The notes under the pieces were generated by a model that saw only the letters and a program-made list of their open reading frames with translations, made no database searches and was not told the origin of the DNA. A stretch of 36,335 nt of DNA, from positions 1-36,335 of the forward strand of contig JAICEW010000019.1 in the NCBI GenBank assembly GCA_025923995.1. The letters run 5' to 3'. How positions within the stretch are numbered: position 1 is the stretch's first letter; the number at the start of each line of letters is the position of its first letter. Below, piece after piece: positions 6,374 through 33,003 of the stretch. The translations under genes were made by a program, and so were the position numbers. Source of the DNA: Vicinamibacteria bacterium. GTDB taxonomy: Bacteria > Acidobacteriota > Vicinamibacteria > Fen-336.

Positions 6374-6403
6374 TTGACGGACTTTGCGCGGGCGTGTTAC
6401 TTT
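6374..6403 (+). promoter_or_regulatory. Possible sigma70-type promoter for the ileS operon
   Basis: TTGACG (6374-6379) is followed after 18 nt by TACTTT (6398-6403). The -35 is strong and the -10 is moderate. Initiation would fall near 6410, about 30 nt before the ileS ATG. It lies back-to-back with the possible leftward promoter at 6330-6357 in a locally AT-richer patch. No T-box or long leader is visible. Confidence 0.4.
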
Positions 6404-6441
6404 GCCTGTTCTCGCGCGCGAGTCACGAGAAGAGACAGGCA

Positions 6442-9249
6442 ATGACCTCCACCGCGGACCTCAAGTCCACGCTCAACCTTCCGCAGACCGCCTTCCCCAT
6501 GAAGGCCAACCTCCCGCAGGCCGAGCCGCGCCGCCTCGAGGCGTGGAAGGCCGAGGACCTGTACGGGCAGGTGCGCGCGGCGCGGAAGGGCGCGCCCAAG
6601 TACGTGCTGCACGACGGCCCGCCCTACGCGAACGGGCACATCCACCTGGGGACCACGCTCAACAAGATCCTGAAGGACGTGGTGGTGCGCAGCCGGAGCC
6701 TGGCCGGCTTCGATGCTCCCTACGTCCCCGGCTGGGACTGCCACGGGCTGCCCATCGAGCTGCGCGTGGACAAGGACCTCGGCGCGAAGAAGCGCGAGAT
6801 GAGCCCCGTCGCCTTCCGCCAGGCGTGCCGCGCGTACGCCGAGAAGTACCTGGACATCCAGCGCACCGAGTTCGTGCGGCTGGGCGTCATGGGCGACTGG
6901 GACCATCCGTACCGCACGATGGATCCCGGCTACCAGGCGACGATCGTGCGCGAGCTGGCGACGTTCGCCGAGCGCGGCCTCGTCTACAAGGCGAAGAAGT
7001 CGGTCCACTGGTGCATCACGGACCGCACGGCGCTCGCGGAGGCGGAGATCGAGTACGACGAGGCCCACGTCAGCCCGTCGATCGACGTGCGCTTCGACCT
7101 GGCCGGCGGCGAGGCCGCGCGGCTGGGCCTGCCCGCGGCGGGGCGCGTGTCCGCCGTCATCTGGACCACGACCCCCTGGACGCTCCCCGCGAACCTGGCG
7201 CTCGCGTTCCATCCCGAGGCGGACTACGGCGTGTACGAGGTGGAGGGCGCGCCCGACGAGCGGATCGTCCTGGCCCGGGCCCTGCGCGAGGCGGCGGTGG
7301 CCCGCTGGAGCGGGAAGGGCGGCGGCGGCCTGGTCCTGGGCCGCGAGGTGGGCGCGCTCAAGGGCGCCGCGTTCGAGGGGGCGCGCTTCCGCCATCCCTG
7401 GATCGACCGCGACTCCAAGGGCGTGCTGGGCGACTACGTCACGCTCGACACGGGCACCGGCGTCGTGCACACCGCGCCCGGCCACGGCTGGGACGACTAC
7501 CTGACCGGCGTGAAGTACGGACTCGACATCTACTGCCCCGTGGACGAGGCGGGCCGCTTCCTGCCCGAGGTCGAGCACTTCGCGGGGCAGAAGGTCTTCG
7601 ACGCGAACCCCAAGGTGATCGAGCTCCTGCGCGAGCGGGGGGCGCTGCTCTCGTCGGGCCAGGAGAAGCACTCGTACCCGGTCTGCTGGCGCTGCAAGAA
7701 CCCGATCATCTTCCGCGCGACCCCCCAGTGGTTCATCGCCCTCGACGGCGAGCAGGACCTGCGGGGCCGCACGCTCAAGGCGATCGACGAGCAGATCACG
7801 TGGCACCCCGCGTGGGGGCGCGACCGCATCTACAACATGATCGAGGGACGGCCCGACTGGTGCATCTCGCGCCAGCGGCTGTGGGGCGTGCCCATCCCCG
7901 CGTTCTACTGCGAGGGCTGCGGCGAGGCGCTGCTGCGTCCGGAGCTGGTGCGGCGGGTGGCGGACGTGTTCGAGCAGCACAGCGCCGACGCCTGGTACGA
8001 CCGCGACGCCGCGGCCTTCCTGCCCGACGGCTTCCGTTGCCCCAGTTGCGGCGGCGATGCCTTCCGCAAGGAGACCGACATCCTCGACGTCTGGTTCGAC
8101 TCCGGCTCCTCGCACGCGGCCGTTCTCGCGCAGCGGCCGGAGCTGCGCTGGCCCGCCGACGTGTACCTGGAGGGCAGCGACCAGCACCGCGGCTGGTTCC
8201 ATTCGTCCCTGCTGATCGGCATGGGCGCGCACGACGCGCCGCCGTACAAGGACGTCGTGACCCACGGGTTCACGATCGACGCCCAGGGCCGGAAGATGTC
8301 GAAGAGCCTGGGCAACGTCATCGAGCCCCAGAAGGTCTGGGACAGGTACGGGGCCGAGGTGCTGCGGCTGTGGGTGTGCATGGTCGACTACCGCGAGGAC
8401 ATGCCCGTCTCCGACGCCATGTTCCAGCAGGTGGCCGAGGCCTACCGCAAGCTGCGCAACACCTGCCGCTACCTGCTCTCGAACCTCTACGACTTCGACC
8501 CGGGCCGCGACGCGGTCGCCGAGGCCGACCTGCTGGAGCTGGACCGCTACGCGCTGGCCCGCCACCGGCAGGTGGTGGCCCGCGTGCTGCAGGCCTACGA
8601 CGAGTTCGAGTTCCACGTCATCTACCACCAGCTCGTGCAGTACTGCGCCGCCGACCTGTCGTCGTTCTACCTGGACGTGCTCAAGGACCGGCTCTACTGC
8701 GACGCGGCGGCCGGCGCCCGCCGGCGCTCGGCGCAGACGGTGCTCCACCGCATGGCGTGCGACCTGGCCCTGCTGATGGCGCCCGTGCTGCCGTTCACCG
8801 CCGACGAGGTGTGGCCTCTCATCCCGGGCCAGGCGGGCAGCGTCCACACCGCGCTGTTCCCCAGGGCCGAGGCCGCGGACGAGGAGACCGTCCAGCGCTG
8901 GTCGGCGCGGCTCGAGACCCGCGCGGCCGTCACCCGCGCGCTGGAGGAAATGCGGGCGCAGAAGACCATCGCCTCGGGGCTGGAGGCGCAGGTGACGATC
9001 GCCGCCCCGCCCGACCTGCTGGAGGCCCTCCAGGCGTACGAGCGCCAGGGGCCGGCCTTCCCCACCCACCTGGCCAGCCTGTTCATCGTGAGCCGGGTGG
9101 CGCTGGAGGCGGGGAGCGCGCTCGCGGTCCGAGTGGAGCGCGCGGGCGGGTCGAAGTGCGAGCGCTGCTGGACGTATTCTGGGAACGTGGGCAAGGCGCA
9201 CCCGGGGGTCTGCGAGAGGTGCGCCGAAGTGCTGTCCGGTGCGGACTAG
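6442..9249 (+). CDS. ileS: Isoleucyl-tRNA synthetase
   Basis: This cytoplasmic enzyme charges tRNA-Ile with isoleucine. The 935 residues match the usual bacterial length. The class I HIGH motif is PYANGHIHLG (H66-G70). A CP1 editing region follows (WTTTPWTLPANLAL), then DWCISRQRLWGVPIPAFYC and DVWFDSGSSH. KMSKS is at 618-622. The C-terminal zinc site typical of the bacterial type has C906, C909, C924 and C927 in CERCW and CERC. The frame is open to an earlier start at 6394, but ATG 6442 begins the normal N-terminus and follows the possible promoter at 6374-6403. It is the first gene of a plus-strand operon; lspA starts 19 nt after its stop, a linkage seen in many bacteria. Confidence 0.98.
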   Translation: MTSTADLKSTLNLPQTAFPMKANLPQAEPRRLEAWKAEDLYGQVRAARKGAPKYVLHDGPPYANGHIHLGTTLNKILKDVVVRSRSLAGFDAPYVPGWDCHGLPIELRVDKDLGAKKREMSPVAFRQACRAYAEKYLDIQRTEFVRLGVMGDWDHPYRTMDPGYQATIVRELATFAERGLVYKAKKSVHWCITDRTALAEAEIEYDEAHVSPSIDVRFDLAGGEAARLGLPAAGRVSAVIWTTTPWTLPANLALAFHPEADYGVYEVEGAPDERIVLARALREAAVARWSGKGGGGLVLGREVGALKGAAFEGARFRHPWIDRDSKGVLGDYVTLDTGTGVVHTAPGHGWDDYLTGVKYGLDIYCPVDEAGRFLPEVEHFAGQKVFDANPKVIELLRERGALLSSGQEKHSYPVCWRCKNPIIFRATPQWFIALDGEQDLRGRTLKAIDEQITWHPAWGRDRIYNMIEGRPDWCISRQRLWGVPIPAFYCEGCGEALLRPELVRRVADVFEQHSADAWYDRDAAAFLPDGFRCPSCGGDAFRKETDILDVWFDSGSSHAAVLAQRPELRWPADVYLEGSDQHRGWFHSSLLIGMGAHDAPPYKDVVTHGFTIDAQGRKMSKSLGNVIEPQKVWDRYGAEVLRLWVCMVDYREDMPVSDAMFQQVAEAYRKLRNTCRYLLSNLYDFDPGRDAVAEADLLELDRYALARHRQVVARVLQAYDEFEFHVIYHQLVQYCAADLSSFYLDVLKDRLYCDAAAGARRRSAQTVLHRMACDLALLMAPVLPFTADEVWPLIPGQAGSVHTALFPRAEAADEETVQRWSARLETRAAVTRALEEMRAQKTIASGLEAQVTIAAPPDLLEALQAYERQGPAFPTHLASLFIVSRVALEAGSALAVRVERAGGSKCERCWTYSGNVGKAHPGVCERCAEVLSGAD

Positions 9250-9268
9250 CGGTGGCGGCAGGTCAACG

Positions 9269-9796
9269 ATGAACGAGACGACGTCGGGGCGCAGGATGTA
9301 CTTCGGTGTGGCGGGCCTCATCGTCTGCCTCGACCAGATCACGAAGGCGCTGGTGGACCGCTACATGTCGCTCTACGAGAGCCGCGCGGTCGTGGACGGG
9401 CTGGTGAAGCTGACCTACGTCCAGAACCGCGGCGCCGCCTTCGGGATCCTCTCGGACGCGGACCTGCCGTACCAGTCGTGGCTGTTCGCGGTCGTGAGCC
9501 TGCTGGCCCTGGGCGCGATCGCCGCCTACGCCTGGAAGCTGCCGCCGGGCAGCCGGACGCCGCGGCTGGCGCTGGCGCTCATCATGGGCGGCGCGGTCGG
9601 GAACCTCCTCGACCGCCTGCGCCTGGGGTACGTCGTCGATTTCGTGGACGTCCACTGGGGCGTGCACCACTGGCCCGCGTTCAACGTGGCCGACTCGGCC
9701 ATCAGCGTGGGTGTCGCCCTGCTGCTCCTCGACATCCTGCGCCACCCGCAGGGCGAGGCGCGCACCGAAGCCTCGCCGGCGGGGCCGGGAGAGTAA
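9269..9796 (+). CDS. lspA: Lipoprotein signal peptidase (signal peptidase II)
   Basis: LspA is an inner-membrane aspartyl protease that removes the signal peptide from diacylglyceryl-prolipoproteins. The 175-aa protein has four hydrophobic helices and all family blocks: LDQITKALV near the N-terminus, VQNRGAAFGIL (51-61), GNLLDRLRLGYVVDFVDVHW (111-130) and FNVADSAISVGV (138-149). The catalytic aspartates are D124 and D142. The frame is open from 9239, overlapping ileS, but ATG 9269 places the N-terminus where the family begins. The ribosome site (GGCAGG) is weak. It lies between ileS and lgt, so consecutive steps of lipoprotein maturation are co-transcribed. Likely clients in this window include the lipoproteins at 6064-6255 and 23561-25003. 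Confidence 0.97.
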   Translation: MNETTSGRRMYFGVAGLIVCLDQITKALVDRYMSLYESRAVVDGLVKLTYVQNRGAAFGILSDADLPYQSWLFAVVSLLALGAIAAYAWKLPPGSRTPRLALALIMGGAVGNLLDRLRLGYVVDFVDVHWGVHHWPAFNVADSAISVGVALLLLDILRHPQGEARTEASPAGPGE

Positions 9797-9803
9797 GCCA
9801 AGA

Positions 9804-10634
9804 ATGCATGCGAAGCTGCTGACGCTGCCCGGGTTCGCGCTGTTCGGCTGGAACGTGCCGTCCTTCACGCTCCACACCTACGGCGCCCTGCTCGCCATCG
9901 CCTTCCTGGCCGGGCTGTGGATCGCCCACCGCGAGGCCAAGCGAACGGGCATGGACGCGGCGCGGATCACCGACATGGCCGTCTACGTCCTGATCGGCGG
10001 CCTGATCGGGGCCCGCCTCCTCCTGCTGCTCGTGGACTGGCGGCACTTCGTGGCCAACCCGCGCGAGATGGTGGCGCTCGTCCAGAGCGGCGGCGTGTTC
10101 TACGGCGGCCTGCTGGGCGCGCTGCCCGTCGCCTGGTGGTACGTGCGGCGGCACAAGCTGGACCCCTGGCGCTCGGCCGACGTGCTGGCCCCGGGCGTCG
10201 TGCTCGGCCAGTCCATCGGCCGGCTGGGCTGCTTCGCCGCGGGCTGCTGCTGGGGACGCGCCACCGACGTGGCCTGGGCGGTGACCTTCACCGACACGTA
10301 CGTGCAGAAGCAGGTGGGCACTCCCCTCGACCTTCCCCTGCACCCGTCGCAGATCTACGAGTCGCTCCTGTGCCTGGGCATCTTCGTGGTCGTGATGTGG
10401 ATCGCGCGGCGCAAGCGGTTCCACGGGCAGGTCATGCTCGCCTACGTCGCCCTCTACGCCGCCGGGCGCTTCGTGCTCGAGTACTTCCGCGGCGACGCGG
10501 CGCGGGGCACGCTGTTCGGTGGCGCGCTCAGCACCTCCCAGTTCATCGCGATCCTGATGGCGGTGGCGACCGCGCTGCTCTACCCCTACCTCGCCAGGAA
10601 ACAGCGGATCGAGCCTCCCGCCAAAGCCGCCTGA
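9804..10634 (+). CDS. lgt: Prolipoprotein diacylglyceryl transferase
   Basis: Lgt transfers diacylglycerol from phosphatidylglycerol to the lipobox cysteine, the step before LspA. It is 276 aa with about seven membrane helices. Family marks are QSGGVFYGGLLGA (94-106, a Tyr where E. coli has the HGGL His), the signature GQSIGRLGCFAAG with R140 (135-147), HPSQIYE (180-186) and GRFVLEYFRGD (221-231). The frame overlaps lspA upstream, but ATG 9804 lies 7 nt after the lspA stop with GGGAGAG in front and gives the usual N-terminus. Its tight spacing with lspA and the rluD-like gene indicates one transcript. Confidence 0.97.
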   Translation: MHAKLLTLPGFALFGWNVPSFTLHTYGALLAIAFLAGLWIAHREAKRTGMDAARITDMAVYVLIGGLIGARLLLLLVDWRHFVANPREMVALVQSGGVFYGGLLGALPVAWWYVRRHKLDPWRSADVLAPGVVLGQSIGRLGCFAAGCCWGRATDVAWAVTFTDTYVQKQVGTPLDLPLHPSQIYESLLCLGIFVVVMWIARRKRFHGQVMLAYVALYAAGRFVLEYFRGDAARGTLFGGALSTSQFIAILMAVATALLYPYLARKQRIEPPAKAA

Positions 10635-10641
10635 CGCGTCC

Positions 10642-11589
10642 ATGCCGGACGCCCACGCGTTCGTGGTCGAGGCGGAGGCCGACGGCGTCCGCCTCGACGT
10701 GTTCCTGGCCCGCCGCCTGCCCGCGCTCAGCCGGGCCCGCATCCAGGCGGTGATCGCGGCGGCCGGCGCGGCGGTCGACGGCCGGACCGCGCGCCCCTCG
10801 CACCGCCTGAAGGCCGGCGCTTCGGTGTCGGTCGTCCTGCCCGATCCCGAGCCCGCCGAGCCGGCGCCCGAGGACATCCCGCTGCGCGTCCTCCACGAGG
10901 ACGCGCACCTGCTGGTCGTGGACAAGCCCGCGGGCCTGGTCGTGCACCCCGGCGCGGGCGCCGCCTCGGGCACGCTCGTGAACGCGCTGCTGCACCACGT
11001 GCGCGACCTCTCCGGCATCGGGGGCGTCCTGCGTCCCGGCATCGTGCACCGGCTGGACAAGGGCACCTCGGGCCTCATCCTGGTGGCCAAGGACGACGCG
11101 ACCCATCGCGCCCTGGCCCGCCAGTTCGCGCAGCGCTCGGTGCGCAAGGAGTACCAGGCGGTGGTGCTGGGCGTGCCCACCCGCGCGCAGGGCGAGATCG
11201 ACCGTCCCATCGGACGCGATCCCGTCCACCGGCGGCGCAGGGCCGTCGACGCGCCGCGGGCGCGCGCGGCGCGCACGAGCTACGCGACGCGCGAGCGGCT
11301 GGACGGCGCGGCGCTGCTGGACGTCCGCATCCACACCGGCCGCACCCACCAGATCCGCGTGCACCTCGCCTGCATCGGGCACCCGGTCGCGGGCGACGAC
11401 ACCTACGGCGGCCGCCGGGCCCCCTCGTCGCGCAGCGCCCGGGCCCGCGAGGCGCTCCACGCGCTCGCGCGGCCCGCGCTGCACGCCGCCCGCCTCTCGT
11501 TCGACCACCCCGCGACCGGCGAGGCGATCACGGCCGAGAGCCCCCTGCCGCCCGACCTGACGGCGCTCGTCGAGGCCCTCCGCCCGTGA
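10642..11589 (+). CDS. rluD: RluA-family 23S rRNA pseudouridine synthase, RluD-like
   Basis: A 315-aa cytoplasmic enzyme that isomerises uridine to pseudouridine in RNA. An S4-like RNA-binding region covers about residues 12-70 (VRLDVFLARRLPALSRARIQ). The catalytic domain follows, with VVDKPAGLVVHPG (92-104) and motif II HRLDKGTSGLILVAKDD, where D139 is the expected nucleophile. Later blocks are TGRTHQIRVHL and GHPVAGDDTYGG. An N-terminal S4 domain favours RluD or RluC over RluA, and position next to lspA/lgt is common for RluD homologues, but the exact target uridines cannot be assigned. It starts 7 nt after lgt. The segment between the two core blocks is unusually Arg-rich. Confidence 0.93.
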   Translation: MPDAHAFVVEAEADGVRLDVFLARRLPALSRARIQAVIAAAGAAVDGRTARPSHRLKAGASVSVVLPDPEPAEPAPEDIPLRVLHEDAHLLVVDKPAGLVVHPGAGAASGTLVNALLHHVRDLSGIGGVLRPGIVHRLDKGTSGLILVAKDDATHRALARQFAQRSVRKEYQAVVLGVPTRAQGEIDRPIGRDPVHRRRRAVDAPRARAARTSYATRERLDGAALLDVRIHTGRTHQIRVHLACIGHPVAGDDTYGGRRAPSSRSARAREALHALARPALHAARLSFDHPATGEAITAESPLPPDLTALVEALRP

Positions 11590-11608
11590 CGGCTTGGTAG
11601 ACTGCGGC

Positions 11609-12163
11609 ATGCCACACGAGGGATCGCCGCGCGCACGGGTGGTGGGCCACCGCGTGGTCTACGACGGCAAGGTGCTGGCGCTCCACGTGGACGAGGTGGA
11701 GGAGCCGGGCGGCGTGCGCGCGACGCGGGAGGTCGTGCGCCAGCGCGGGTCGGTGGCGGCGCTCGCGTTGAGCGCGGACGACCGCGTCGTGCTGGTGCGC
11801 CAGTACCGCTACGCGGTGGACGGCGCGCTGTGGGAGCTGCCCGCCGGCCGGCTCGACCCCGGCGAGACGCCCGAGCAGGGCGCGCGGCGCGAGCTGGTCG
11901 AGGAGGTGGGCCTCGAGGCGGAAACGATGGAGCCGCTCGCGGTCTTCTACACGACGCCGGGCTTCTGCGACGAGCTGATGCACGTCTTCCGCGCGACCGC
12001 GCTGCGCCAGGTGCCGCCCCGTCCCGAGGACGACGAGCGCATCGAGGCCCGCTGGTTCGGGCTCGACGAGGCGATGGGCATGATCGAGCGGGGCGAGATC
12101 CGGGAAGGCAAGACGCTGGTGGCGCTGCTGCGCGAGCACGCCCTCCGCGCCGGACGCGGCTGA
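11609..12163 (+). CDS. NUDIX hydrolase, ADP-ribose pyrophosphatase-like
   Basis: A 184-aa hydrolase with a perfect Nudix box at 80-102 (G-x5-E-x7-REL-x-EE-x-GL; G80, E86, R94, E95, E98, E99, G101). The N-terminal strands (GKVLALHVDEV, REVVRQRGSVAALAL), VRQYRYAVDGALWELPAGRLD and the TPGFCDE segment just after the box match ADP-ribose/nucleoside-diphosphate-sugar pyrophosphatases of the NudF type. Such enzymes split ADP-ribose into AMP and ribose 5-phosphate. The frame opens at a TTG (11594), but ATG 11609 gives a normal N-terminus 19 nt after the rluD-like gene. No strong ribosome site is visible. It sits in the envelope operon 22 nt before the large TamB-BamA-type gene. Confidence 0.92.
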   Translation: MPHEGSPRARVVGHRVVYDGKVLALHVDEVEEPGGVRATREVVRQRGSVAALALSADDRVVLVRQYRYAVDGALWELPAGRLDPGETPEQGARRELVEEVGLEAETMEPLAVFYTTPGFCDELMHVFRATALRQVPPRPEDDERIEARWFGLDEAMGMIERGEIREGKTLVALLREHALRAGRG

Positions 12164-12185
12164 CCCCCGGGTCGCGAAGGGGCGC

Positions 12186-15100
12186 GTGAGAGTCTCCCGA
12201 CGCGGCGTGGTCCTGCTCCTGCTGGCGGCGGCCGCGGCCGTGGTCGCGGCCCTCCTGCTCGGCTGGTTCCCGCAGGAGCCCGTGCGCCGGCTGGTCGAGG
12301 GCCGGCTGCAGCAGGCGCTGGGCCCCGGCGCGCGCGTCTCCCGGCTGCGCGTGTGGCCGGGGCGGCTGTACGCGGAGATGGAGGGGCTGGTCGTGGACGT
12401 GCCGGCCTACCGGCTCGAGGCCCGGACGGCGCGCGTCGCCATCGACCGGCGCACGCTGTTCGGGCCCGTGGTCGCCCTGACCCGCCTCGAGGCGGACGGC
12501 GTCACGCTGCTCGTCCGCGGGGATGCTCCCGCCGCGCCGGCCGGCGCCGCCCCGACCACGACCGTCGTGATGGGCCGCGTCCACGTCACGAACGCCAGCG
12601 CGCGCTACGAGTCGCAGTCCGTCCGCGGGGCGGTCGCGATCGACGGCGTGACGATCGAGGGCGCGGTCGGCCACGACGCGCTCGAGCTCTCCGCGGCCGG
12701 CGGGCGCTGGGAGTCCGACCGCACCGTGGCGCTGGGGCCCACGCGCGCGCGCGTCCGCATCACGCCCACGCTCGACCTGCACGTCGAGTCCTTCGAGACC
12801 GGGCTCGCGCGCTCGCGCCTCTCGGCCTCGGGCCCGCTGGGAAACGCGATGCGGCCCCAGCCGGACCTGGCCTGGACGGCGACCCTCGACGTCGCGGAGA
12901 TCGCGCCGATCGCGGACCTGGGCGACGCCTCGGGCTCGCTGCGGGCCCAGGGCACGCTGCGGACGCCGTCCTCGGGGCTGGCCCTCGTCGCGGACGTCTC
13001 CGGCGAGCGCCTCCGCCGGGGCGAGTGGTCCGTGGACACGGTGAAGGGCCACGTCACCCACGAAGGCGGCCGCACGACGGGTGACCTCGACGCCACGCTG
13101 CTGGGCGGCGCCGCGACGCTCCAGGCCTCACACGCCGGCGCGTCCCTCCGGGGACGCGTGGTCGCGACGGGGATCGACCTGGCCCGGGTGCGCGCGTCGC
13201 CATCGCTGGCGGGACGGGCCTCGGCCACGCTCGACCTCCGCGGCGATCCCGCGGGCACGCTCGAGATCGACGCGCGCGTGACGGCGGAGGGAGCGAGCGG
13301 CTCGACGCCGTTCCGTGCCGAGGTCCTGGCGGAGGGCGCGGTCGCCGCGGACGGCTCGCGCATCGACGTCGACTGGGCGGCGTCGGGCGAGGGCGGCGAC
13401 GCCGACGCGTCGGCCCGCCTGCAGGCCAGCGGCCGGGCCCAGGGCGCGCTGCCACCCGCGGTGACCGGCCACGTGGAGGGCGTGCTGCGCGCGACGCGGA
13501 CCGGCGAGCTCCCGTTCGAAGCGGACGTGACCTTCGCGAACGGCGCGCTGGACGCCGCGGGCGCGATCCGCGGCCTGGGCGAGCCGCTCACCCTGCGCGC
13601 CACCGGCGTGGACGGCCGCTCCGGCCGGATCGAGCTGGCCAGCGAGGGGCTGGCGCTCGATCGCCTGCTGCCCGGCGCGCGCGGCCAGGCGCGCCTCTCC
13701 GCCACGGCGAGCGGCCGCTTCGACGCGCCCTCGGGGCACGCGTCGATCCAGCTCGAGGATGCCGTCTGGCGCGGCATCGCCCTCGGTCCGGCGACGGCCG
13801 AGCTCACCGCGAAGGACGGCGCGGCAACGATCGAGCTGCACGTGCCCGAGTGGAACCTGTCGGGCCACGCCGACGTCGCGGCGGACCGGGCGCGGACGCT
13901 GCGCGGACGCGTCGACCTGGCGGCGACGCCGCTGGACCGGCTGGGTCCGTTGCTTCCCGAGGGACCGGCGCTCGAGGGTGCGGTCACCGCGGCCATCGAC
14001 CTCGACGTGCCGCTGACGCGTCCGTCCGGTGCGGACGTGCGCATCGAGGTCGCGGAGGCGCAGGTCGCGCGTGGCGCCTTGCGCGTGCGCAACCGTGGCC
14101 CCGTTCGCCTCGCCTGGCGCGAAGGCCGCGTGGAGGTCGAACGTCTCGAGGTGGAGGGCGAAGGCTTCGCCGCGCGGGCCGCGGGCCGCCTGGGCGTGGC
14201 CGCGACCGAGCCGCTCGACCTGCAGGTCTCCGCCGAGACGGAGCTGGACGCGCTTCCCATCCCGGAGGGCTGGACGGTGGCGGGGCGCGTCGCGGCGGAG
14301 CTGGACGTGGGCGGCACGCGCCTCCGGCCGCTCGTGACCGGGGACGTCACCTTCGACGACGCGGGCTTCTCGGGCCCCTCCCTGCCGCCCTTCTCGATCG
14401 CCCAGGGCCGGGTGGAGCTGGCTGGCGAGTCGCTGCTGCTGCCGGACCTGCCGATCGATGTGGCCGGCGGCCGCGTGGTCCTGTCGGGCACCCTGCCGCT
14501 GGCGGCGGCGCTGCCCGCGGCCCGCGACCGCTCCGACCGCCTGGCCCCGGATGAGGCGGCGGACGTGCGCGCGGCCTGGAAGGGCGTGCGCGTCGAGGAG
14601 TGGCCGCAGGGCGGGGGCGACACGCGACTGGCGGGCGTGCTGGAGGGCACGCTCGCCGTGACGGGCGGGCTCGCCTCGCTGCGCGAGGTGCGCGCCAGGC
14701 TCGAGGTGCCGGCCACCTCGCTCCACGTCGAGGAGATCCGCTTCCAGGTCGACCCGTTCGCGGCCGTGCTCGCGGACGGCCGCGTGGAGCTCGATGCGCT
14801 GCAGGTGGGAGCGGCCGACTCGGTCGTCCGCTTGTCGGGCGCCGCCGACCTCGCGCGCCGACGGATCGAGGCCGCGGCGCTGGGCTCGCTGAACCTGCGG
14901 GCCGTGTCGCCCTTCGTGCCCGAGGCGGCGCTGTTCGGCACGGCCGAGGTGGACGTCTCGGCCAGCGGCGACTGGAGCGCGCCCGAGGTGCACGGCGACG
15001 TGACGGTCGAGGACGCGAGCCTGCGCCTGCGGCTGCTCCCCCAGGCCGTGACGTCGCTCGCCGCGCGCATCGTCTTCGACGGCGACTCGCTGCGCGTCCC

Positions 15101-18100
15101 CTCCGCCTCCGCGGTGATGGGCGGCGGCGAGCTGGCGCTCTCGGGGGACGCGCGCCTGCGGGGCGGGCTCGCGGATGCGCGCTTCACGATCACCGGCCGC
15201 GACATCACGCTGTCGTACCCGCCGGGCCTGCGCAGCCGGCTGGACGCGGACCTCACGCTGACGGGCGGGCCCGAGGCCTACAAGCTGGCCGGCGACGTGC
15301 GGGCGGTGCGCGGCCTGTTCGACCTCGACATCGTGTTCGAGCAGAGCCTGCAGGCCCCGAAGACGGTCGCCTCCGATTCGGCCGCGCTGCGGAAGTTCGG
15401 CCTGGACCTGCGCGTCGAGGTCCAGAACCCGATCCAGGTGCGGAACAACATGACCGACCTCACGGCCACCGGCACCCTGCACGTGCGCGGCGACATGAAC
15501 GCGCCGGCCCCGGTGGGGAACCTGGACATCGAGACCGCGGGCAAGGTGTACCTGAGCGGACGCGCGTTCGAGATCGCGAGCGGGCGCCTCACGTACCGGG
15601 GCAACTGGAACCCGACCGTCGAGATCGAGGCCACGGACCTCATCAGCGGCTCCGACGCCAACAACCTGACGACGGAGTACGAGGTCACCGTTCGCCTGGT
15701 CGGATCGCTCGACCGGCCGGGCCTCGTGATGTCCTCCGATCCGCCCCTCTCGGAAGGGCAGATCGTGAGCCTGATCGCCACCGGCCGCACCGACGGCGGC
15801 GGATCCGCGCTCAAGGTCGCCGTGGGCGGCCAGGCCGCGATGCTGCTGGCCGGGCGCCTCACGCGCCGCGTGCGCGAGCTGGGCCTGGACGAGGTGTCGG
15901 TGCAGCCGGAGCTGGTGGCGCGCGAGGAGGGCAACGAGACGGGCGCGCGCTTCACCTTCGGCAAGCGCCTCACGCAGCGCCTCGAGCTCATCTACTCGCT
16001 CAGCCTGCAGGATCCCGAGGCGCGCTTCATCCTGCTGGAAGCGCGTCCGGGCCGGGGGGTCATCGTCCGCGGGCAGCGCAACGACGCCGGCACGCTGGCG
16101 GCCAGCGTGGGGCAGCGCTTCCAGTTCGGCGGCCCGCCGCGGCGGCGGCCCGCCTCGGTGGAGCGCCGCGTGCGCCTGACCGCCGTGACCTTCGAGGGCG
16201 AGCAGCCGGTGCCGAACGACGAGCTGGCCCGGCTCGCGGACGTGCGGGCCGGGCAGCGCAAGACCGTGTGGGACCTGCAGGACGCCGCCGACCGGCTGCG
16301 GGCGCGGCTGATCGAGCGCGGGTACATCGAGGCGGAGGCGGGAGCGCGGCTGGACGAGGGCGTCGCCGTCTTCCGCGTGCGCACCGGCGCCCGCTACGAC
16401 TGGCGGGTCGAGGGCATGGCCGACCCTCCCGACCTGGCGAAGACCATCCGCGAGTCGCTCTTCGAGGAGGAGGCGATCCAGCGCGGCGAGGACGCGGTCC
16501 TGCGCGTGCTGCACGAGCGGGGCCACCTGCGCGCCCGCGCGACCGCGCGCGCGGAGCCATCGGACGGCCGGCGCACGCTCGTGTTCGCCGCGGAGCCCGG
16601 ACCGCGCTACCAGCCCGTGCAGGTGGAGTTCCCCGGCGCACAGGCGCTCTCCGCGAAGCACCTGCTGGGCGAAGCGGGAGGCGCGGGTCGCCTCGTCTCG
16701 GAGCCGGGCGCCGCCCGGCAGGCGATCGAGGACGCGTACCACGGCGCGTTCCACCTCACGGCCCAGGTGGATCCGCCGCAGGTGGCCGAGGTTCCGCCGA
16801 ACGGCCTGCGCGTCACGGTGGCGGTGCGCGAGGGCCCGCGCGCGAGCGTGGGCGCGGTGCGATTCGAAGGGGTCACGCGCCCGGTCGCCGACCTCGAGCG
16901 CGCCGTGGCCCTCCAGCCGGGGGCGCCGTACGAGCCCGAGGCGGCCCTGGCCGCGACCGAGCGGCTGCGCGAGCACTACTTCCGGCTGGGCCACGGCGAC
17001 GTGCGCGTGCAGGCGGCGGCGGTCCCCAGCGGCGCTCAGGTCGACGTGGTGTTCACGGTCGAGGAGGGGCGGCGGGCGGTGCTCGGCCGCATCGTCATCC
17101 AGGGCCTGCGCGTCACGCGCGAGTCGCTGGTCCGCCGGCAGATCCGACTGCGGCCGGGCTCGCCCCTCGACCCGCGCCGGCTCGCCAACCTGGAGCGTCG
17201 GCTGCTCGACATGCGGCTCTTCTCGCGCGTGGTGACCACGGTCTCGGACGAGGACCCGGCGACGCTCACGATCGCGCTCGAGGAGGACGACCGCTTCTTC
17301 GGGCGCTACGCGCTCTCCTACGAGCAGGAGCGGATCCAGCCGGGCGACGAGACCCCGAGCTTCCTGGAGCGGAGCACCGCCGAGGTGGACGTGGAGATGC
17401 GCAACCTCCTGGGCTGGGGCGCCAGCGCGGGCGCGCGCGGCCGGGTGGGCGCGGACGTGCGCGACGCGAGCGCGTCGATCGCGATCCCGTCGCTGCCCTT
17501 CCTCGGGAACTTCACGGGCAACGTGTTCCGGATCCAGGAGGACATCGCGATCACGCCCGACGCCGTGACCGGGGAGAAGCGGGAGAGCCAGCGGACGCAG
17601 GACGGTTTCGAGGTCTCCTTCACCCGCCGCCTGCCGCGCCGGACGGACCTGCTCTACGGCTACCGCTTCGAGGACTCGGAGGTGGTCTCCCCCGACTTCA
17701 TCGAGCCGCAGTCCGCGCGTACCGCGGTGCTGCGCGGCTCCGTGCTGCGCGACACCCGCGACAGCATCCTCGACTCGCGCACCGGGCGGTTCCTGAGCGT
17801 GAGCCTGGACTACGCGCCCGACTTCCTGCGCGGCGACTTCACGTTCGTGAAGGGCCTGGCCCAGGCGTTCCTGGCCCGGCCGCTCGGAGCCTCGATCACC
17901 TGGGCGCAGGGCTATCGGCTCGGGCTGGGCACCGGGCTCAAGGGACAGAGCATCCGCTCGACCGAGCGCTTCCGCGCCGGCGGCGCCAACTCCATCCGGG
18001 GGTTCGAGACGGACACCGTCGGGCCGTTCGACGCGCTCACGAAATCGTTCGCGGGGGGCGAGGCGGTCGTGATCGTCAACGAGGAGCTGCGCTTCCGGCA

Positions 18101-18344
18101 CCGCAGCGGCTTCGGCGCGGCCGTCTTCTACGACGGCGGCAACGTGTTCGCGACGGTCGACGACGTGAGCTTCGACTGGCTCCACACGCTGGGCCTGGGC
18201 CTGCGCTGGGACTCCCCCATCGGCCTGCTGCGGCTGGACCTGGGCCTGCCGCTCAACCCCCGGACGCTGCCGTTCGACGCCGAGGGGCCGCCGCGCAAGG
18301 AGTCCGGCTACCAGATCTTCTTCAGCTTCGGCCAGGCCTTCTAG
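12186..18344 (+). CDS. TamB-like (DUF490) protein fused to five POTRA repeats and an Omp85 (BamA/TamA-type) barrel
   Basis: A single unbroken frame of 2052 residues from GTG 12186. Residues about 8-27 are one hydrophobic helix with no clear cleavage site, as in TamB/AsmA inner-membrane anchors. Residues about 30-1000 are repetitive beta-rich AsmA/TamB-like sequence. Residues about 1000-1325 match the conserved TamB C-domain (RNNMTDLTATGTLHVRGDM, YLSGRAFEIASGRLTYRG, SDPPLSEGQIVSLIATGR). Five POTRA-like units follow at about 1328-1395, 1400-1470, 1474-1548, 1551-1624 and 1628-1698. A 16-strand-type barrel domain occupies about 1700-2052, with the Omp85 motif SIRGFE (about 1936) and a terminal Phe. 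TamA has three POTRAs and BamA five, so the barrel half is BamA-like in layout. The chain would span inner membrane, periplasm and outer membrane. The expected role is outer-membrane protein insertion and/or lipid transport; the fusion is seen directly, the function is inferred. Confidence 0.93.
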   Translation: MRVSRRGVVLLLLAAAAAVVAALLLGWFPQEPVRRLVEGRLQQALGPGARVSRLRVWPGRLYAEMEGLVVDVPAYRLEARTARVAIDRRTLFGPVVALTRLEADGVTLLVRGDAPAAPAGAAPTTTVVMGRVHVTNASARYESQSVRGAVAIDGVTIEGAVGHDALELSAAGGRWESDRTVALGPTRARVRITPTLDLHVESFETGLARSRLSASGPLGNAMRPQPDLAWTATLDVAEIAPIADLGDASGSLRAQGTLRTPSSGLALVADVSGERLRRGEWSVDTVKGHVTHEGGRTTGDLDATLLGGAATLQASHAGASLRGRVVATGIDLARVRASPSLAGRASATLDLRGDPAGTLEIDARVTAEGASGSTPFRAEVLAEGAVAADGSRIDVDWAASGEGGDADASARLQASGRAQGALPPAVTGHVEGVLRATRTGELPFEADVTFANGALDAAGAIRGLGEPLTLRATGVDGRSGRIELASEGLALDRLLPGARGQARLSATASGRFDAPSGHASIQLEDAVWRGIALGPATAELTAKDGAATIELHVPEWNLSGHADVAADRARTLRGRVDLAATPLDRLGPLLPEGPALEGAVTAAIDLDVPLTRPSGADVRIEVAEAQVARGALRVRNRGPVRLAWREGRVEVERLEVEGEGFAARAAGRLGVAATEPLDLQVSAETELDALPIPEGWTVAGRVAAELDVGGTRLRPLVTGDVTFDDAGFSGPSLPPFSIAQGRVELAGESLLLPDLPIDVAGGRVVLSGTLPLAAALPAARDRSDRLAPDEAADVRAAWKGVRVEEWPQGGGDTRLAGVLEGTLAVTGGLASLREVRARLEVPATSLHVEEIRFQVDPFAAVLADGRVELDALQVGAADSVVRLSGAADLARRRIEAAALGSLNLRAVSPFVPEAALFGTAEVDVSASGDWSAPEVHGDVTVEDASLRLRLLPQAVTSLAARIVFDGDSLRVPSASAVMGGGELALSGDARLRGGLADARFTITGRDITLSYPPGLRSRLDADLTLTGGPEAYKLAGDVRAVRGLFDLDIVFEQSLQAPKTVASDSAALRKFGLDLRVEVQNPIQVRNNMTDLTATGTLHVRGDMNAPAPVGNLDIETAGKVYLSGRAFEIASGRLTYRGNWNPTVEIEATDLISGSDANNLTTEYEVTVRLVGSLDRPGLVMSSDPPLSEGQIVSLIATGRTDGGGSALKVAVGGQAAMLLAGRLTRRVRELGLDEVSVQPELVAREEGNETGARFTFGKRLTQRLELIYSLSLQDPEARFILLEARPGRGVIVRGQRNDAGTLAASVGQRFQFGGPPRRRPASVERRVRLTAVTFEGEQPVPNDELARLADVRAGQRKTVWDLQDAADRLRARLIERGYIEAEAGARLDEGVAVFRVRTGARYDWRVEGMADPPDLAKTIRESLFEEEAIQRGEDAVLRVLHERGHLRARATARAEPSDGRRTLVFAAEPGPRYQPVQVEFPGAQALSAKHLLGEAGGAGRLVSEPGAARQAIEDAYHGAFHLTAQVDPPQVAEVPPNGLRVTVAVREGPRASVGAVRFEGVTRPVADLERAVALQPGAPYEPEAALAATERLREHYFRLGHGDVRVQAAAVPSGAQVDVVFTVEEGRRAVLGRIVIQGLRVTRESLVRRQIRLRPGSPLDPRRLANLERRLLDMRLFSRVVTTVSDEDPATLTIALEEDDRFFGRYALSYEQERIQPGDETPSFLERSTAEVDVEMRNLLGWGASAGARGRVGADVRDASASIAIPSLPFLGNFTGNVFRIQEDIAITPDAVTGEKRESQRTQDGFEVSFTRRLPRRTDLLYGYRFEDSEVVSPDFIEPQSARTAVLRGSVLRDTRDSILDSRTGRFLSVSLDYAPDFLRGDFTFVKGLAQAFLARPLGASITWAQGYRLGLGTGLKGQSIRSTERFRAGGANSIRGFETDTVGPFDALTKSFAGGEAVVIVNEELRFRHRSGFGAAVFYDGGNVFATVDDVSFDWLHTLGLGLRWDSPIGLLRLDLGLPLNPRTLPFDAEGPPRKESGYQIFFSFGQAF

Positions 18345-24999: not shown

Positions 25000-25003
<4 letters not shown>
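23561..25003 (-). CDS. Right-handed parallel beta-helix lipoprotein (pectate lyase/NosD-like)
   Basis: A 480-aa protein with a lipoprotein signal (lipobox LAAC, Cys17) and a Ser/Gly spacer. It then has the pectate-lyase-3-like entry motif FGAVGDGQTDDTAALQAAI. About fifteen short repeats with regular Val/Ile and Asn spacing follow (IRGGTLVGS, IENSAFRG, VEDNVVAGNEHGIV, ISDNRVEDAGQRGILL), typical of right-handed beta-helix rungs. Such proteins bind, cleave or epimerise polysaccharides in the envelope. Catalytic residues cannot be assigned. ATG 25003 overlaps the upstream aminotransferase stop (ATGA, 25000-25003). Its place in the polysaccharide operon, just before the exporter, suggests it trims, edits or holds the polymer in the periplasm or on the outer membrane. 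Confidence 0.87.
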
Positions 25004-26801
<1,798 letters not shown>

Positions 26802-26805
<4 letters not shown>

Positions 26806-27422
26806 GGGCTCACCACGCTGCCCCGGAACTCAGGCATCGAGTCCGACCCCGCCGCGGTGATCCCGCGCCGCGACAGCACGGTCCACAGCGTCCGGGCCAG
26901 TATCTGCGCGTCCAGGGCGAGCGACCAGTGGTCCACGTACCAGACGTCGAGCGCCAGCCGCTCGTCCCAGGAGACCGCGTTGCGCCCGTGCACCTGCGCC
27001 CAGCCGGTGAGGCCCGGCCGGACCTCGTGCCGCCGCGACTGCTCGGGGGTGTACCGGTCGAGGTACTGCGTGAGCAGCGGGCGGGGCCCCACCAGGCTCA
27101 TCTCCCCGCGCACGACATTCCACAGCTCCGGCAGCTCGTCCAGGCTGCACGAGCGCAGGAAGCGACCCAGGCGCGTCAGCCGCTCGCCGTCGCCGCCGGC
27201 ACCCACGCGCATCGTCCGGAACTTCACCAGCACGAACGGCCGGGCCCCCAGGCCGGGCCTCGTCTGGCGGAAGAGGACCGGCCGGCCGAGGCCGGTGCGC
27301 ACCGCGACGGCGACCAGCGCCAGGACCGGCGCGGCCAGGACCAGCGCGGCCGCGGCGATGGCGCGGTCGGCCACGGCCTTCACGGCGCGGGCGAAGCGAT
27401 GGCGCTCAACGGCTGGCGGCAT
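26802..27422 (-). CDS. PglC-type initiating sugar-1-phosphate transferase
   Basis: A 206-aa monotopic phosphoglycosyltransferase (bacterial sugar transferase family) that starts a repeat unit by moving a sugar phosphate onto undecaprenyl phosphate at the cytoplasmic face. An N-terminal re-entrant hydrophobic helix covers about 20-42. Core motifs are FRQTRPG, VKFRTM, SLDELPELWNVVRGEMSLVG with the catalytic D95-E96 pair, and HEVRPGLTGWAQVHGRN. It has the short PglC-like form, without the extra transmembrane domain of WbaP or the Rossmann domain of PglB-type fusions. The ATG lies 17 nt inside the 3' end of the upstream double glycosyltransferase gene. The neighbouring PglD-PglE-like fusion suggests a UDP-diacetamido sugar as donor. 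Confidence 0.93.
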
Positions 27423-29709
27423 GGGCCTCCTCGTGGTGCGCGGGCGGAGGAACGGCGTGGGCCAGACCCTTCTCGCGGAGCAGGCGCTCGTACTCGGCCA
27501 GGACGCGGCCGAACACGCGCCGCTCGTCGAACTCCTGGAGGGCGCGCCGGCGTCCTTCCTCGCCCAGGCGGCGGGCGTGCAGCGGGTCGGTCAGCAGCGA
27601 CAGGATCGCGTGGGCCAGGGCGGGCACGTCGCGCGGCGGGACCAGCAGCCCGTTGCGCTCGTGCGCGACCGCCTGGCGGCATCCCCGCACGTCGCTGACG
27701 ACGCAGGGGACCTTCATGGCCGAGGCCTCGAGCGGCGCGCGCGGGAACCCCTCGCGGTGGGAGGGCAGCACGAAGACGTCCATCGCCTGGTACAGCTCCG
27801 GCATGTCCTGGCGCACGCCGGTGAACACGCACGCGCCGGCCACGCCCTTGGCCTGCGCGACGTCCGGCGTCAGCCGGTCCGCCTTCTCGAGGTCGGTGCC
27901 TCCCACCAGCAGGAAACGCACCTCGGGAAAGCGCTCGATCACGATCCGCGCGGCATCCAGCAGCTCGGGCACGCCCTTCTCCGCCACCAGCCGGCCCACG
28001 AAGCCGACCACCGGCACGTCGGCGGGAATGCCGAGCGACGCGCGCGTGCGGTGCCGCGTCTGCGGCGTGAAGCGCGCGGGATCGAACCGCTTCACGTCGA
28101 TGCCGTTGCCCAGGTGGCGGATCTGGCCGGGACGCGCGATGCCGAGGTCGAGCGCGGTGCGGACGTCCTCGTCGTTCTGCGACAGGATGACGTCCGAGCA
28201 GCGGGCGGCCAGCCGCTCGAGCGCCACGTAGAACCGCCGGACCGCCGGACGCATGCGGTCGTGGAAGTAGAACCCGTGCAGCGTGTTCACCACCACCGGC
28301 ACGCCGGCCAGGCGCGCGGCGACCTGGCCCAGGAGGCCCGGCTTGGGGTTGTGCGTGTGCACGATGGTGAACCGGCGCCGCCGCATCAGCCGGAACAGGC
28401 GGACGAGCGCGACCAGGTCGCGCCCGGGCGTGAGGCGGCGGGACATGGGCACGGCCGCGTGCTCGATGCCCCGCGCCGTGAGCGCGGGCACGTCGGGGCC
28501 CGGCGAGGAGATGCCGGTGACCGCGTATCCTTCCCCGCGGATCGCCTGCAGCTGGTTCAGCAGCAGGTAGCGCAGCGACAGGTCCGCGGTCGTGACGTGC
28601 GCGACCGCCGCCGGACCGCCCTGGTGGTCCCGGCCTCCGGCCCGCGCCAGCGCCTGGTGGAACGCCGCCAGGTGGCCGTCCACCATGACCGACACGTCGT
28701 GCCGCTCCTGCACGTACCGGCGCCCCGCGCTCCCCAGCCGCGCCCGCAGGGCCTCGTCGTCCAGCAGCCGGGAGAGCGCGGCCGCGAGGCCAGGGGCGTC
28801 GCCCGGCTGCACCAGCAGGCCGGTGCGGCCGTCCTGCACCACCTCGCTCACGCCGCCCACGCGCGAGGCGACGACGGGGACGCCGGCCCGCATGGCCTCG
28901 AGCAGCGAGGTCGGCATGCCCTCGCGGTGGAGCGTCGGCAGCGCGACGATCGTGGCGCGCTCGAGGTAGGGCCCCACGTCGTCCGAGAAGCCCACCGCCT
29001 CGTAGGTGTCCGCGAGCCCCGCGGCGTCCGCGTGCGCGAAGAACCGCCCCCGCGTGAAGTCGCGGCCCACGAGCGTCGCGCGCAGGTCCGGGAAGCGCGC
29101 GCGCAGCAGACGGACCGCCTCCAGCAGCACCCCCTGCCCCTTGTTCGGCGTGATGTTGCCGATGCACACGATCGACGCGGGCTGCGCCACCCGCCGCGGG
29201 ACGTCGGCCGTGCGCCGGCCGGCGATGCCGTTGGGCACGACGAACACGGGGGGCGCCCCCTCGCCGAGCGTTCGCTGCAGGTTGCCCCCGGCGAAGTCGG
29301 AGTTGGCCACGTAGGCCTGGACCAGGAAGCGGTCCAGCGCCCGCGCCAGGCGGTCGCTGCGCCGGTTGGCCGAGGACCGCTCCGCGGCCACCACGCAGCG
29401 CACGCCGGCCAGCCGGGCCACGAGCGTCCAGGGGATCGTGCGGACGCGCCCGAACACGTAGAGCACGTCCGGCCGGTGGCGCCGGAGCAGGCGCAGCAGC
29501 CCCGTCATGTCGGCCGGCGTCAGGCCGTGGTACGGAACGCCCAGCACGCCGCTCGCCTGCCGCAGCTCCGCGTTCTCGGGCGCGAGCACGACGATGCGGC
29601 AGTCGAGCCGGTCCGGGTGGGTCTGCTCGATGAGCCGCAGCATCGAGCGCTCCGCGCCGCCGATGGCGCGGGCGGCGAACGCGAACGCGACGCGCAGCGG
29701 GGCGCTCAT
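27406..29709 (-). CDS. Tandem-fused double GT4 glycosyltransferase
   Basis: One open frame of 767 residues carries two complete GT-B/GT4 enzymes. The first (about 1-355) runs from VAFAFAARAIGGAERSMLRL through GNITPNKGQGVLLEA to the EX7E motif EGMPTSLLE (263-271). After a linker of about 14 residues (355-368) the second (about 369-750) begins with VAHVTTADLSLRYLLLNQL. It contains HTHNPKPGLLG and FVGRLVAEKGVPELL, and ends with EGFPRAPLE (EX7E, 653-661). No stop or obvious frameshift lies in the linker. The protein should add two successive sugars to the lipid-linked repeat unit at the cytoplasmic face. ATG 29709 overlaps the stop of the upstream GT (ATGA). Donor specificities are unknown. Confidence 0.92.
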   Translation of the reverse strand: MSAPLRVAFAFAARAIGGAERSMLRLIEQTHPDRLDCRIVVLAPENAELRQASGVLGVPYHGLTPADMTGLLRLLRRHRPDVLYVFGRVRTIPWTLVARLAGVRCVVAAERSSANRRSDRLARALDRFLVQAYVANSDFAGGNLQRTLGEGAPPVFVVPNGIAGRRTADVPRRVAQPASIVCIGNITPNKGQGVLLEAVRLLRARFPDLRATLVGRDFTRGRFFAHADAAGLADTYEAVGFSDDVGPYLERATIVALPTLHREGMPTSLLEAMRAGVPVVASRVGGVSEVVQDGRTGLLVQPGDAPGLAAALSRLLDDEALRARLGSAGRRYVQERHDVSVMVDGHLAAFHQALARAGGRDHQGGPAAVAHVTTADLSLRYLLLNQLQAIRGEGYAVTGISSPGPDVPALTARGIEHAAVPMSRRLTPGRDLVALVRLFRLMRRRRFTIVHTHNPKPGLLGQVAARLAGVPVVVNTLHGFYFHDRMRPAVRRFYVALERLAARCSDVILSQNDEDVRTALDLGIARPGQIRHLGNGIDVKRFDPARFTPQTRHRTRASLGIPADVPVVGFVGRLVAEKGVPELLDAARIVIERFPEVRFLLVGGTDLEKADRLTPDVAQAKGVAGACVFTGVRQDMPELYQAMDVFVLPSHREGFPRAPLEASAMKVPCVVSDVRGCRQAVAHERNGLLVPPRDVPALAHAILSLLTDPLHARRLGEEGRRRALQEFDERRVFGRVLAEYERLLREKGLAHAVPPPAHHEEAHAASR

Positions 29710-32341: not shown

Positions 32342-33003
32342 GGCCACGCCTCGGCCGGCATCCCGCCCGGCTCGCGCGTCCCACGGGGCGACATGCGCAC
32401 GCGCACCGGCGCGGCGGGGTTGCCGGCCCAGAGCTGCCCCGCGGGCACGCGGCCGCGCACGACGGAGCCCGCGCCCACGATCGCCCCTTCGCCGATCGCG
32501 ACTCCCTTGAGCAGGATCGAGTGGCCGCCCACGAACGCGCGCGGCCCGATCACGACGGGAGCGGTGCGCGCTCCCGGGTTGCCCGCGCGCTCGCGCTCGT
32601 CGGCGTCCAGCGAGTGGAAGTCCGTGTCGTAGACCTTGCTGTCGCCGCCCAGGAACACGCGGTCCCCGATCGTGACCTCGCGCAGGCAGACGATCGTCGA
32701 GTTGCTGAGGCCCGCGTCGTCCCCGATCGTGAGCCGCCCGTCGCGCCCGACCCAGAAGGCCATGCGGCCGCCGCCGCCCACCGCGTTGCCCGCGAAGCCC
32801 GACTGGATGCGGCAGCGGTCGCCGATGCGGATCGAGCCCGTGCGATGGCAGTGCAGCCGTATCGGCCCGCGCACGCGCAGCCCGCGGCCGACCTGCGCGC
32901 CGTGCGCGCGCAGCCGGATGTAGGCGACGGCCGTCCAGAAGCCCGTCGACAGGGACGCCCTCACCAGGCCCGCCCCCGCCAGGCACCAGCGCACCGCCTT
33001 CAC
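32338..33003 (-). CDS. Left-handed beta-helix (hexapeptide) acyltransferase
   Basis: A 221-aa protein. The first 35 residues are hydrophobic and basic (WCLAGAGLVRASLSTGFWTA), possibly a membrane-associating helix. From about residue 40 it has hexapeptide-type repeats (IRIGDRCRI, LTIGDDAGL, VTIGDRVFLGG, VVIGPRAFVGG, VAIGEGAIVGAGSVV), ending with the usual WAGNPAAPVR. The loop KVYDTDFHSLDADERER contains a His that often serves as catalytic base. The family transfers acetyl or other acyl groups from acyl-CoA to sugars. It probably O- or N-acylates a repeat-unit sugar. The start is GTG 33003, in a GTGA overlap with the flippase stop. The longer open frame upstream is a shadow of the flippase gene. 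Confidence 0.87.
   Translation of the reverse strand: MKAVRWCLAGAGLVRASLSTGFWTAVAYIRLRAHGAQVGRGLRVRGPIRLHCHRTGSIRIGDRCRIQSGFAGNAVGGGGRMAFWVGRDGRLTIGDDAGLSNSTIVCLREVTIGDRVFLGGDSKVYDTDFHSLDADERERAGNPGARTAPVVIGPRAFVGGHSILLKGVAIGEGAIVGAGSVVRGRVPAGQLWAGNPAAPVRVRMSPRGTREPGGMPAEAWP

Follow-up and report, generated by a model that had tools for sequence, protein, structure and literature searches.

In the translocation and assembly module (TAM) of Proteobacteria, the Omp85 barrel protein TamA works with TamB (cryo-electron microscopy structures PDB 9xdc and 9xdd). According to PMC12800296, the last strand of E. coli TamB pairs with strand beta-1 of TamA in a hybrid-barrel state, and TamB also contacts the TamA POTRAs. 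PMC12800296 and PMC11341756 support both phospholipid transport and the insertion of outer-membrane proteins (OMPs) as activities of TamAB, and an anterograde lipid role has been described for TamB in Veillonella (PMC10665443). The subject here is a 36,335-nucleotide stretch of a Vicinamibacteria (Acidobacteriota) genome, hereafter the window, in which one gene encodes a TamB and an Omp85 protein as a single chain of 2052 residues. Since E. coli TamB contacts both TamA beta-1 and the POTRAs, the parts fused here are known to touch. No description of a natural TamB-TamA/BamA (TamB-Omp85) fusion was found in the open-access literature; domain-architecture databases may already list it uninterpreted.

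From the N- to the C-terminus, the chain comprises a membrane helix, a long amphipathic beta-groove, a TamB domain ending with six mimic strands, a linker of ~18 residues, five POTRAs, and a 16-strand Omp85 barrel. Its features, in window coordinates, are:

12186..18344, + strand: complete TamB-Omp85 fusion gene, 2052 residues, GTG start, stop at 18342-18344, with full-length homologues
12198..12257, + strand: N-terminal transmembrane helix (residues 5-24), predicted inner-membrane signal anchor (AlphaFold2 model, hydrophobic peak)
12330..15755, + strand: continuous beta-groove, residues ~49-1190 (AlphaFold2, polar/hydrophobic alternation, Foldseek)
15117..16067, + strand: Pfam TamB (DUF490) domain, residues 978-1294 (E 2.1e-37)
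15891..16127, + strand: six-strand TamB C-terminal pseudosubstrate, residues 1236-1314, with its last strand GTLAASVGQRFQFGG retained (strands 347-425 of the AlphaFold2 C-half, conservation, alignment)
16128..16181, + strand: linker from the TamB end to POTRA1, residues 1315-1332, without signal peptide or lipobox
16182..16382, + strand: POTRA1, residues 1333-1399 (AlphaFold2 beta-alpha-alpha-beta-beta unit, overlapping Pfam POTRA_2)
16392..16595, + strand: POTRA2, residues 1403-1470 (AlphaFold2)
16617..16817, + strand: POTRA3, residues 1478-1544 (AlphaFold2)
16845..17063, + strand: POTRA4, residues 1554-1626 (AlphaFold2; best stretch of Pfam POTRA at 1555-1628)
17091..17285, + strand: POTRA5, residues 1636-1700 (AlphaFold2)
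17295..18341, + strand: 16-strand Omp85 barrel, residues 1704-2052, with terminal Phe (Pfam Omp85, AlphaFold2, Foldseek)
17991..18005, + strand: Omp85 loop-6 signature SIRGF, residues 1936-1940 (conservation of the RGF region)

Pfam matches follow one another in the product in the order TamB (978-1294, E 2e-37), POTRA, and Omp85 (1740-2026, E 5e-34), the POTRA profile recognizing three separate stretches and POTRA_2 residues 1330-1385. GC content at third codon positions (GC3) is 0.96 across the 12186-18344 frame, and the codon-position GC signal designates one best-scoring frame from ~12151 to 18300, unbroken over the join. The initial annotation of this locus had read it as one uninterrupted 2052-codon frame joining TamB to Omp85, with the domain order TamB, five POTRAs, barrel; the frame, the Pfam matches, the models, and the full-length homologues bear out both statements. 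It had also named a stop at about 16100-16200 as the observation that would overturn this reading, and no stop codon occurs between positions 16100 and 16200 of the assembled window.

The window genome is a 6.8 Mb metagenome assembly of 592 contigs, the fusion lying on contig C19, and the window has a GC content of 74%, at which long spurious frames are common. These features are what might favor an assembly or high-GC artefact, with tamB and omp85 being separate genes in this genome. At the window composition, a 2052-codon open frame has a p of ~6e-14 (one frame, independent and identically distributed bases). What places the frame decisively beyond chance are full-length single-frame homologues with 35-45% identity to the 2052-residue fusion, together with a fused homologue in 46%-GC DNA, whose open frame of 2043 codons has a chance of ~1e-48. 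The homologues, the codon signal, and this 46%-GC relative rule out a GC-rich spurious frame; the many independent genomes, the closed G084 among them, rule out an assembly join; and the loss of the Omp85 signal peptide described below also speaks against an artefact. Such an artefact has next to no probability for the window gene and is already refuted for the fusion family. On the sequence evidence, 12186-18344 is confirmed as a genuine one-frame TamB-Omp85 fusion gene.

The phylum was surveyed by a profile search of 297 Acidobacteriota genomes for matches spanning the join, with two candidates scored per genome, so that the counts are lower bounds. Full-length fusions spanning the join were found in at least 68 of these genomes, from 27 families, and the 29 loci of this search that were read back all hold the TamB and Omp85 domains in one open frame. 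The named relatives with full-length homologues are Acidobacteriota, mostly of the class Vicinamibacteria. Fusions are full-length in G003, G008, G011, G012, G013, and G016, while other homologues end at contig ends; a fused homologue is also present in the closed genome G084. The fusion, whose recurrence in related genomes had been put forward as a check, is clearly not a one-off, and profile matches indicate that it is a deep, widespread Acidobacteriota family. To note, one fused subtype with 2969-codon frames (L154:2540-11446 and L155:4381-13287) is several hundred residues longer than the others before the TamB domain.

The TamB domain scores 129.7 bits with PF04357, against a gathering threshold of 22.4, which places it in the TamB (DUF490) family. 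It scores 78.5 bits with NF047952, the proteobacterial TamB equivalog, whose cut-off is 825. Judged by these profiles, the TamB part is homologous to proteobacterial TamB but is not that equivalog. TamB proteins end with strands that mimic an outer-membrane barrel, and six such strands are found at residues 1236-1314 of the fusion; they are the counterparts of the last six strands of E. coli TamB and align with the C-termini of unfused TamBs. Among ten fused homologues, conservation is 0.69 in the last TamB strand vs 0.41 in the linker, which argues that the mimic domain has been retained although it is no longer a C-terminus.

In the fused proteins, the TamB terminal strand is followed by a short linker and directly by POTRA1. 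The window genome also holds an unfused tamB-omp85 pair on contig C126, in which the tamB TGA overlaps the omp85 start (TGATG) and the omp85 product starts with a hydrophobic signal peptide. The maximal 15-residue hydropathy around the join has a median of 0.34 (maximum 1.31) in 43 fused loci, vs a median of 2.02 for the N-terminal regions of unfused Omp85s (n=92); it does not exceed 1.33 in 29 further fused loci from the phylum search. By this measure, the Omp85 signal peptide is lost at the join in the fused forms. Without an export signal of its own, the Omp85 half must be exported within the whole chain, and an internal start is an unlikely source of a working barrel. Indeed, a separately exported Omp85 arising from an internal start was rejected, as neither signal peptide nor lipobox occurs at the join. 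This weakens the second route by which the initial annotation might have been undone, namely two proteins produced through an internal start: none of the fused homologues measured has a signal-peptide-like hydrophobic stretch at the join. The loss does not, however, imply that the chain is left uncut after export. The gene might encode a polyprotein, with a periplasmic cut near residues 1315-1332 releasing an ordinary TamB from an ordinary Omp85 partner. In favor of this, conservation is lower in the linker (0.41) than in any other segment measured; the linker is also partly of low confidence in the AlphaFold2 model and varies in length and sequence among homologues. Yet it stays short, the aligned joins reveal no shared cleavage motif, and the sequence does not require cutting, as contact between the two halves is expected in any case; the conservation of order and frame, with no reversion in 48 sampled members, says little on cleavage either way. 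Such processing is considered unlikely, and an intact chain is preferred.

AlphaFold2 was run on two overlapping halves of the chain. The C-half (predicted local distance difference test, pLDDT, 86.5; predicted TM-score, pTM, 0.69) displays five beta-alpha-alpha-beta-beta POTRAs followed by a 16-strand barrel; its alignment carries ~80 residues of additional POTRA sequence, contributed by unfused rows, in TamB columns, an effect deemed minor. Foldseek matches the POTRAs and barrel with solved BamA and TamA structures. The PF01103 barrel with its 16 strands, the POTRAs, and the RGF motif assign this half to the Omp85 superfamily. The SIRGF motif and terminal Phe reported initially are both present, and the RGF region (residues 1932-1942) has a mean top-residue frequency of 0.81 in a ten-row alignment of fused homologues. 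The chain scores 186.5 bits with TIGR03303, the BamA equivalog (cut-off 297.15), and 77.7 bits with NF047950, the TamA equivalog (cut-off 625), besides having five POTRAs instead of three. As it falls below the TamB, TamA, and BamA equivalog cut-offs, the protein is best named a TamB-Omp85 fusion of the TAM kind, not TamA or BamA. That the barrel is a BamA is ruled out by the TIGR03303 score and by its place outside the BamA clade. The five POTRAs counted initially are those of the model, but their BamA-like number is not a gain toward BamA. The unfused Omp85 partner of the same genome (C126; L053:9166-11793) has ~7 POTRA-sized units, as judged from spacing and weak profile hits, and in trees the fused barrel groups with tandem TAM-side Omp85s and not with the BamAs of the genome. 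Seven-POTRA proteins have been reported in Acidobacteria (PMC4494059), matching the ~7 units of the L053 Omp85.

At the other end of the chain, the N-half model (residues 1-1005, pLDDT 85.1) shows helix 5-24, a second helix at 30-45, then unbroken beta-strands. Arginines precede helix 5-24, as expected for an N-in topology, and the N-terminal hydrophobic peak reaches ~2.8-3.2 in 15-residue hydropathy (KD15) in homologues whose N-terminus is included. A basic stretch followed by a hydrophobic helix is also what is seen in signal peptides, and confidence in the model is lowest here (block pLDDT 54-66); the helix might be cleaved, leaving an outer-membrane protein whose very long arm reaches into the periplasm but is not anchored in the inner membrane. 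The hydrophobic stretch nevertheless leads into an amphipathic helix, and no AxA cleavage site is obvious. Moreover, PMC4494059 gives a signal anchor as a hallmark of TamB proteins, and N-termini of the DUF748/AsmA type are detected in relatives of the fusion. Cleavage of the helix is therefore regarded as very unlikely, and a retained anchor is the preferred reading. Beyond it, polar and hydrophobic residues alternate in 50 strands (residues 49-990) with z = 7 relative to shuffled strands, as expected if one face of the groove is greasy. A long beta-groove, hydrophobic on one side, characterizes the TamB family and is supported here by both the model and this statistic. The groove counts ~70 strands at ~4.8 angstroms each.

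The history of the fusion was addressed with maximum-likelihood trees. In a barrel tree of 23 sequences, the fused barrels form one clade (Shimodaira-Hasegawa-like approximate likelihood ratio test, SH-aLRT, 87). With wider phylum sampling and the root placed on the BamAs of the window genome, all 48 fused barrels again form one clade with an SH-aLRT of 94, a support that is good but not decisive. This clade has long branches and several subtypes, and adjoins the unfused tandem Omp85 partners, its sister lineage. The TamB-domain tree is compatible with the barrel tree once L169 is set aside; this sole "unfused" TamB row within the fused clade represents a gene truncated at a contig end and nearly identical to the fused L032. 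Repeated independent fusion was rejected, one clade being sufficient in the barrel trees and the L169 exception being a contig-end artefact. Since all 48 sampled fused barrels form one clade, the simplest history suggested by the trees is that a tamB-omp85 pair fused once, early in the phylum, and that duplications followed. Unfused pairs have tamB first in Vicinamibacteria, Blastocatellia, and Aminicenantes but omp85 first in Terriglobia (loci L071-L138 vs L072, L077, L091, L127, and G-handle loci). The order in Vicinamibacteria fits an origin of the fusion from such a pair; BamA-TamB is the order given for the Acidobacteria sampled by Heinz et al. 2015 (PMC4494059). POTRA units number ~7 in the unfused partner vs five in the fused form. 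Contig L129 carries an omp85-tamB pair resembling those of Acidobacteriaceae although its label is Bacillota (isolate HOT.MB2.40); the genome is probably mislabelled or misbinned.

The initial annotation had asked whether the genome also has separate bamA and tamA; separate bamA genes are present, as is an unfused tamB-omp85 pair. Three open reading frames (ORFs) exceed the TIGR03303 BamA cut-off (C32, C248, and C57; L055-L057; 428-502 bits), an unusual number for one genome, and the unfused tamB-omp85 pair of C126 accompanies three fused copies, on C19, C9, and C291. The C9 copy is 41% identical to the C19 fusion over nearly its full length, in one frame; that of C291 is more distant and is truncated where its contig ends. 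Nine further ORFs outside the BamA, tandem-pair, and fusion sets, most of them frames of 850-1400 residues, have weak Omp85-barrel matches (E 1e-12 to 1e-4):

contigs C49, C36, C242, C486, C42, C485, C18, C280, and C97 of the window genome (L013-L021): weak Omp85-barrel ORFs

Elsewhere, the complement is simpler. The fusion is the single TamB match in 7 of the 15 fusion-bearing genomes searched (G084, G108, G114, G123, G060, G207, and G191); G084 consists of one contig and is 99% complete. In these fusion-only genomes, one further Omp85 is detected at E 1e-20 in six, and two in G108. On these profile searches, the fusion is the only candidate TAM found in such lineages, where it probably does the whole TAM job. 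In the window genome, as at least three fused copies sit beside an unfused pair, the fused copy may be specialized. Taken further, fused copies could all be specialized paralogues with a non-TAM role, such as exporting a single surface polymer or protein, and the unfused pair would then be the true TAM; the long branches and several subtypes of the fused clade would agree with this. Such a role is rather doubtful, given that the fusion is the only detected TamB in several genomes and that its neighbours are housekeeping genes (ileS, lspA, lgt, rluD, NUDIX) with no dedicated cargo among them.

Taken together, these data make it probable that the fusion is a one-chain TAM that bridges both membranes for phospholipid carriage and/or OMP insertion; as encoded, the TamB part is physically coupled to an Omp85 barrel, covalently and in one frame. 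By analogy with TAM, Sec would export the chain and the N-terminal helix would anchor it in the inner membrane, with the N-terminus placed inside since basic residues precede the helix. The ~70-strand groove would in principle be long enough to cross the periplasm, and would end at the POTRAs and barrel of the same chain, where the retained mimic strands might dock in cis. Cargo would then follow the groove toward the POTRAs and the gate of the barrel. A role mainly as a lipid conduit is slightly favored, as no other conserved element is as extensive as the groove, over one mainly in OMP assembly, which is plausible but less so. A fuller proposal seems to us evenly poised. It holds that the chain is a complete TAM permanently bridging both membranes, arose once deep in Acidobacteriota and has been kept as one chain, is the sole TAM of several lineages, docks its mimic strands in cis into its own barrel gate, and works without a free TamB C-terminus and without dissociation of a TamA-TamB complex.

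Several points weigh against the one-chain bridge. The best solved-structure matches of the N-half in Foldseek, of high probability, are ApoB100 and the lipid-bridge protein LPD-3, but with low TM-scores (0.1-0.2), for which reason the likeness is a hint at the kind of structure and not at homology. The window genome keeps an unfused pair, so that the fused copy need not be its main TAM. Cleavage of the chain after export is compatible with the sequence, and the helix at the N-terminus may be a signal peptide that is removed. Finally, the two halves were modelled separately, which leaves the chain path at the join and docking in cis conjectural. Of the one-chain trans-envelope machine proposed initially, the fusion and the architecture stand, while the function in OMP insertion or lipid transfer is still inferred.

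A one-chain TAM would fix the TamB:Omp85 stoichiometry at 1:1 and make the contact permanent, and the free TamB carboxyl terminus would be dispensable if the chain is not cut. This bears on whether TamB and TamA form a stable bridge or a transient contact, and on whether the cargo is phospholipid, OMPs, or both. The fusion is a Rosetta-stone case for direct TamB-Omp85 coupling outside Proteobacteria, and in fusion-only lineages a deletion would involve a single gene, and purification or imaging across both membranes a single protein. A question of biogenesis arises as well, namely how the beta-barrel assembly machinery (BAM) folds the far end of a chain presumably anchored in the inner membrane into the outer membrane.

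The genes upstream of the fusion, identified with Pfam, are:

6394-9249, + strand: ileS
9239-9796, + strand: lspA
9711-10634, + strand: lgt
10642-11589, + strand: rluD-like pseudouridine synthase
11594-12163, + strand: NUDIX hydrolase

The NUDIX stop and the fusion start are separated by 22 bases. In a tblastn search, lspA-lgt-rluD-NUDIX was also found upstream of the fusion in G003 and G008, which suggests an old locus with housekeeping neighbours, including lipoprotein processing. Downstream, positions 25003-36333 (- strand) hold a polysaccharide or capsule biosynthesis cluster (glycosyltransferase, hexapeptide transferase, flippase-like protein, capsule protein), in which the ORF 25003-26805 (- strand; 601 residues, single frame) fuses a PglD-type hexapeptide acyltransferase to a DegT/DnrJ/EryC1 aminotransferase.

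Profile matches assign the fusion to both the Pfam TamB family and the Omp85 superfamily, and by analogy it would work like TAM. The proteobacterial complex (PMC12800296) shares with it the TamB groove, the DUF490 C-domain with six terminal strands, the POTRA-Omp85 barrel, and the same contact, and has the signal anchor that is predicted for the fusion. It differs in comprising two genes and two proteins, in the opposite order in E. coli (tamA then tamB), and in the three POTRAs of TamA, as compared to five in one covalent chain. In the hybrid BAM-TAM of Borrelia burgdorferi, the DUF490 region of TamB binds to the POTRAs of an Omp85 that has five of them (PMC11361582, PMC13382580), and Spirochaetes share the gene order TamB then Omp85 (PMC4494059); there, however, the proteins are separate and the partner is the only BamA, whereas the window genome has three separate BamAs. 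The unfused Acidobacteriota tamB-omp85 pair (C126; Heinz et al. 2015, PMC4494059) belongs to the sister barrel lineage and has the same gene order in Vicinamibacteria, but consists of separate proteins, with the TGATG overlap, an Omp85 signal peptide, and ~7 POTRA-sized units. The long MlaD of Veillonella parvula (PMC10665443) is likewise a single protein with a predicted inner-membrane anchor, an outer-membrane beta-barrel end, and a lipid bridge between them; it is nonetheless an MCE hexamer of an unrelated family, with a small barrel, no POTRAs, and proposed retrograde transport. Finally, WD40-Omp85 proteins (Heinz and Lithgow 2014, PMC4104836) also fuse an Omp85 barrel to an apparent usual partner, which is BamB-like in that case. 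That partner is periplasmic or at the outer membrane and has no inner-membrane anchor, and those proteins form no bridge between the membranes, as the TamB-Omp85 chain is predicted to do.

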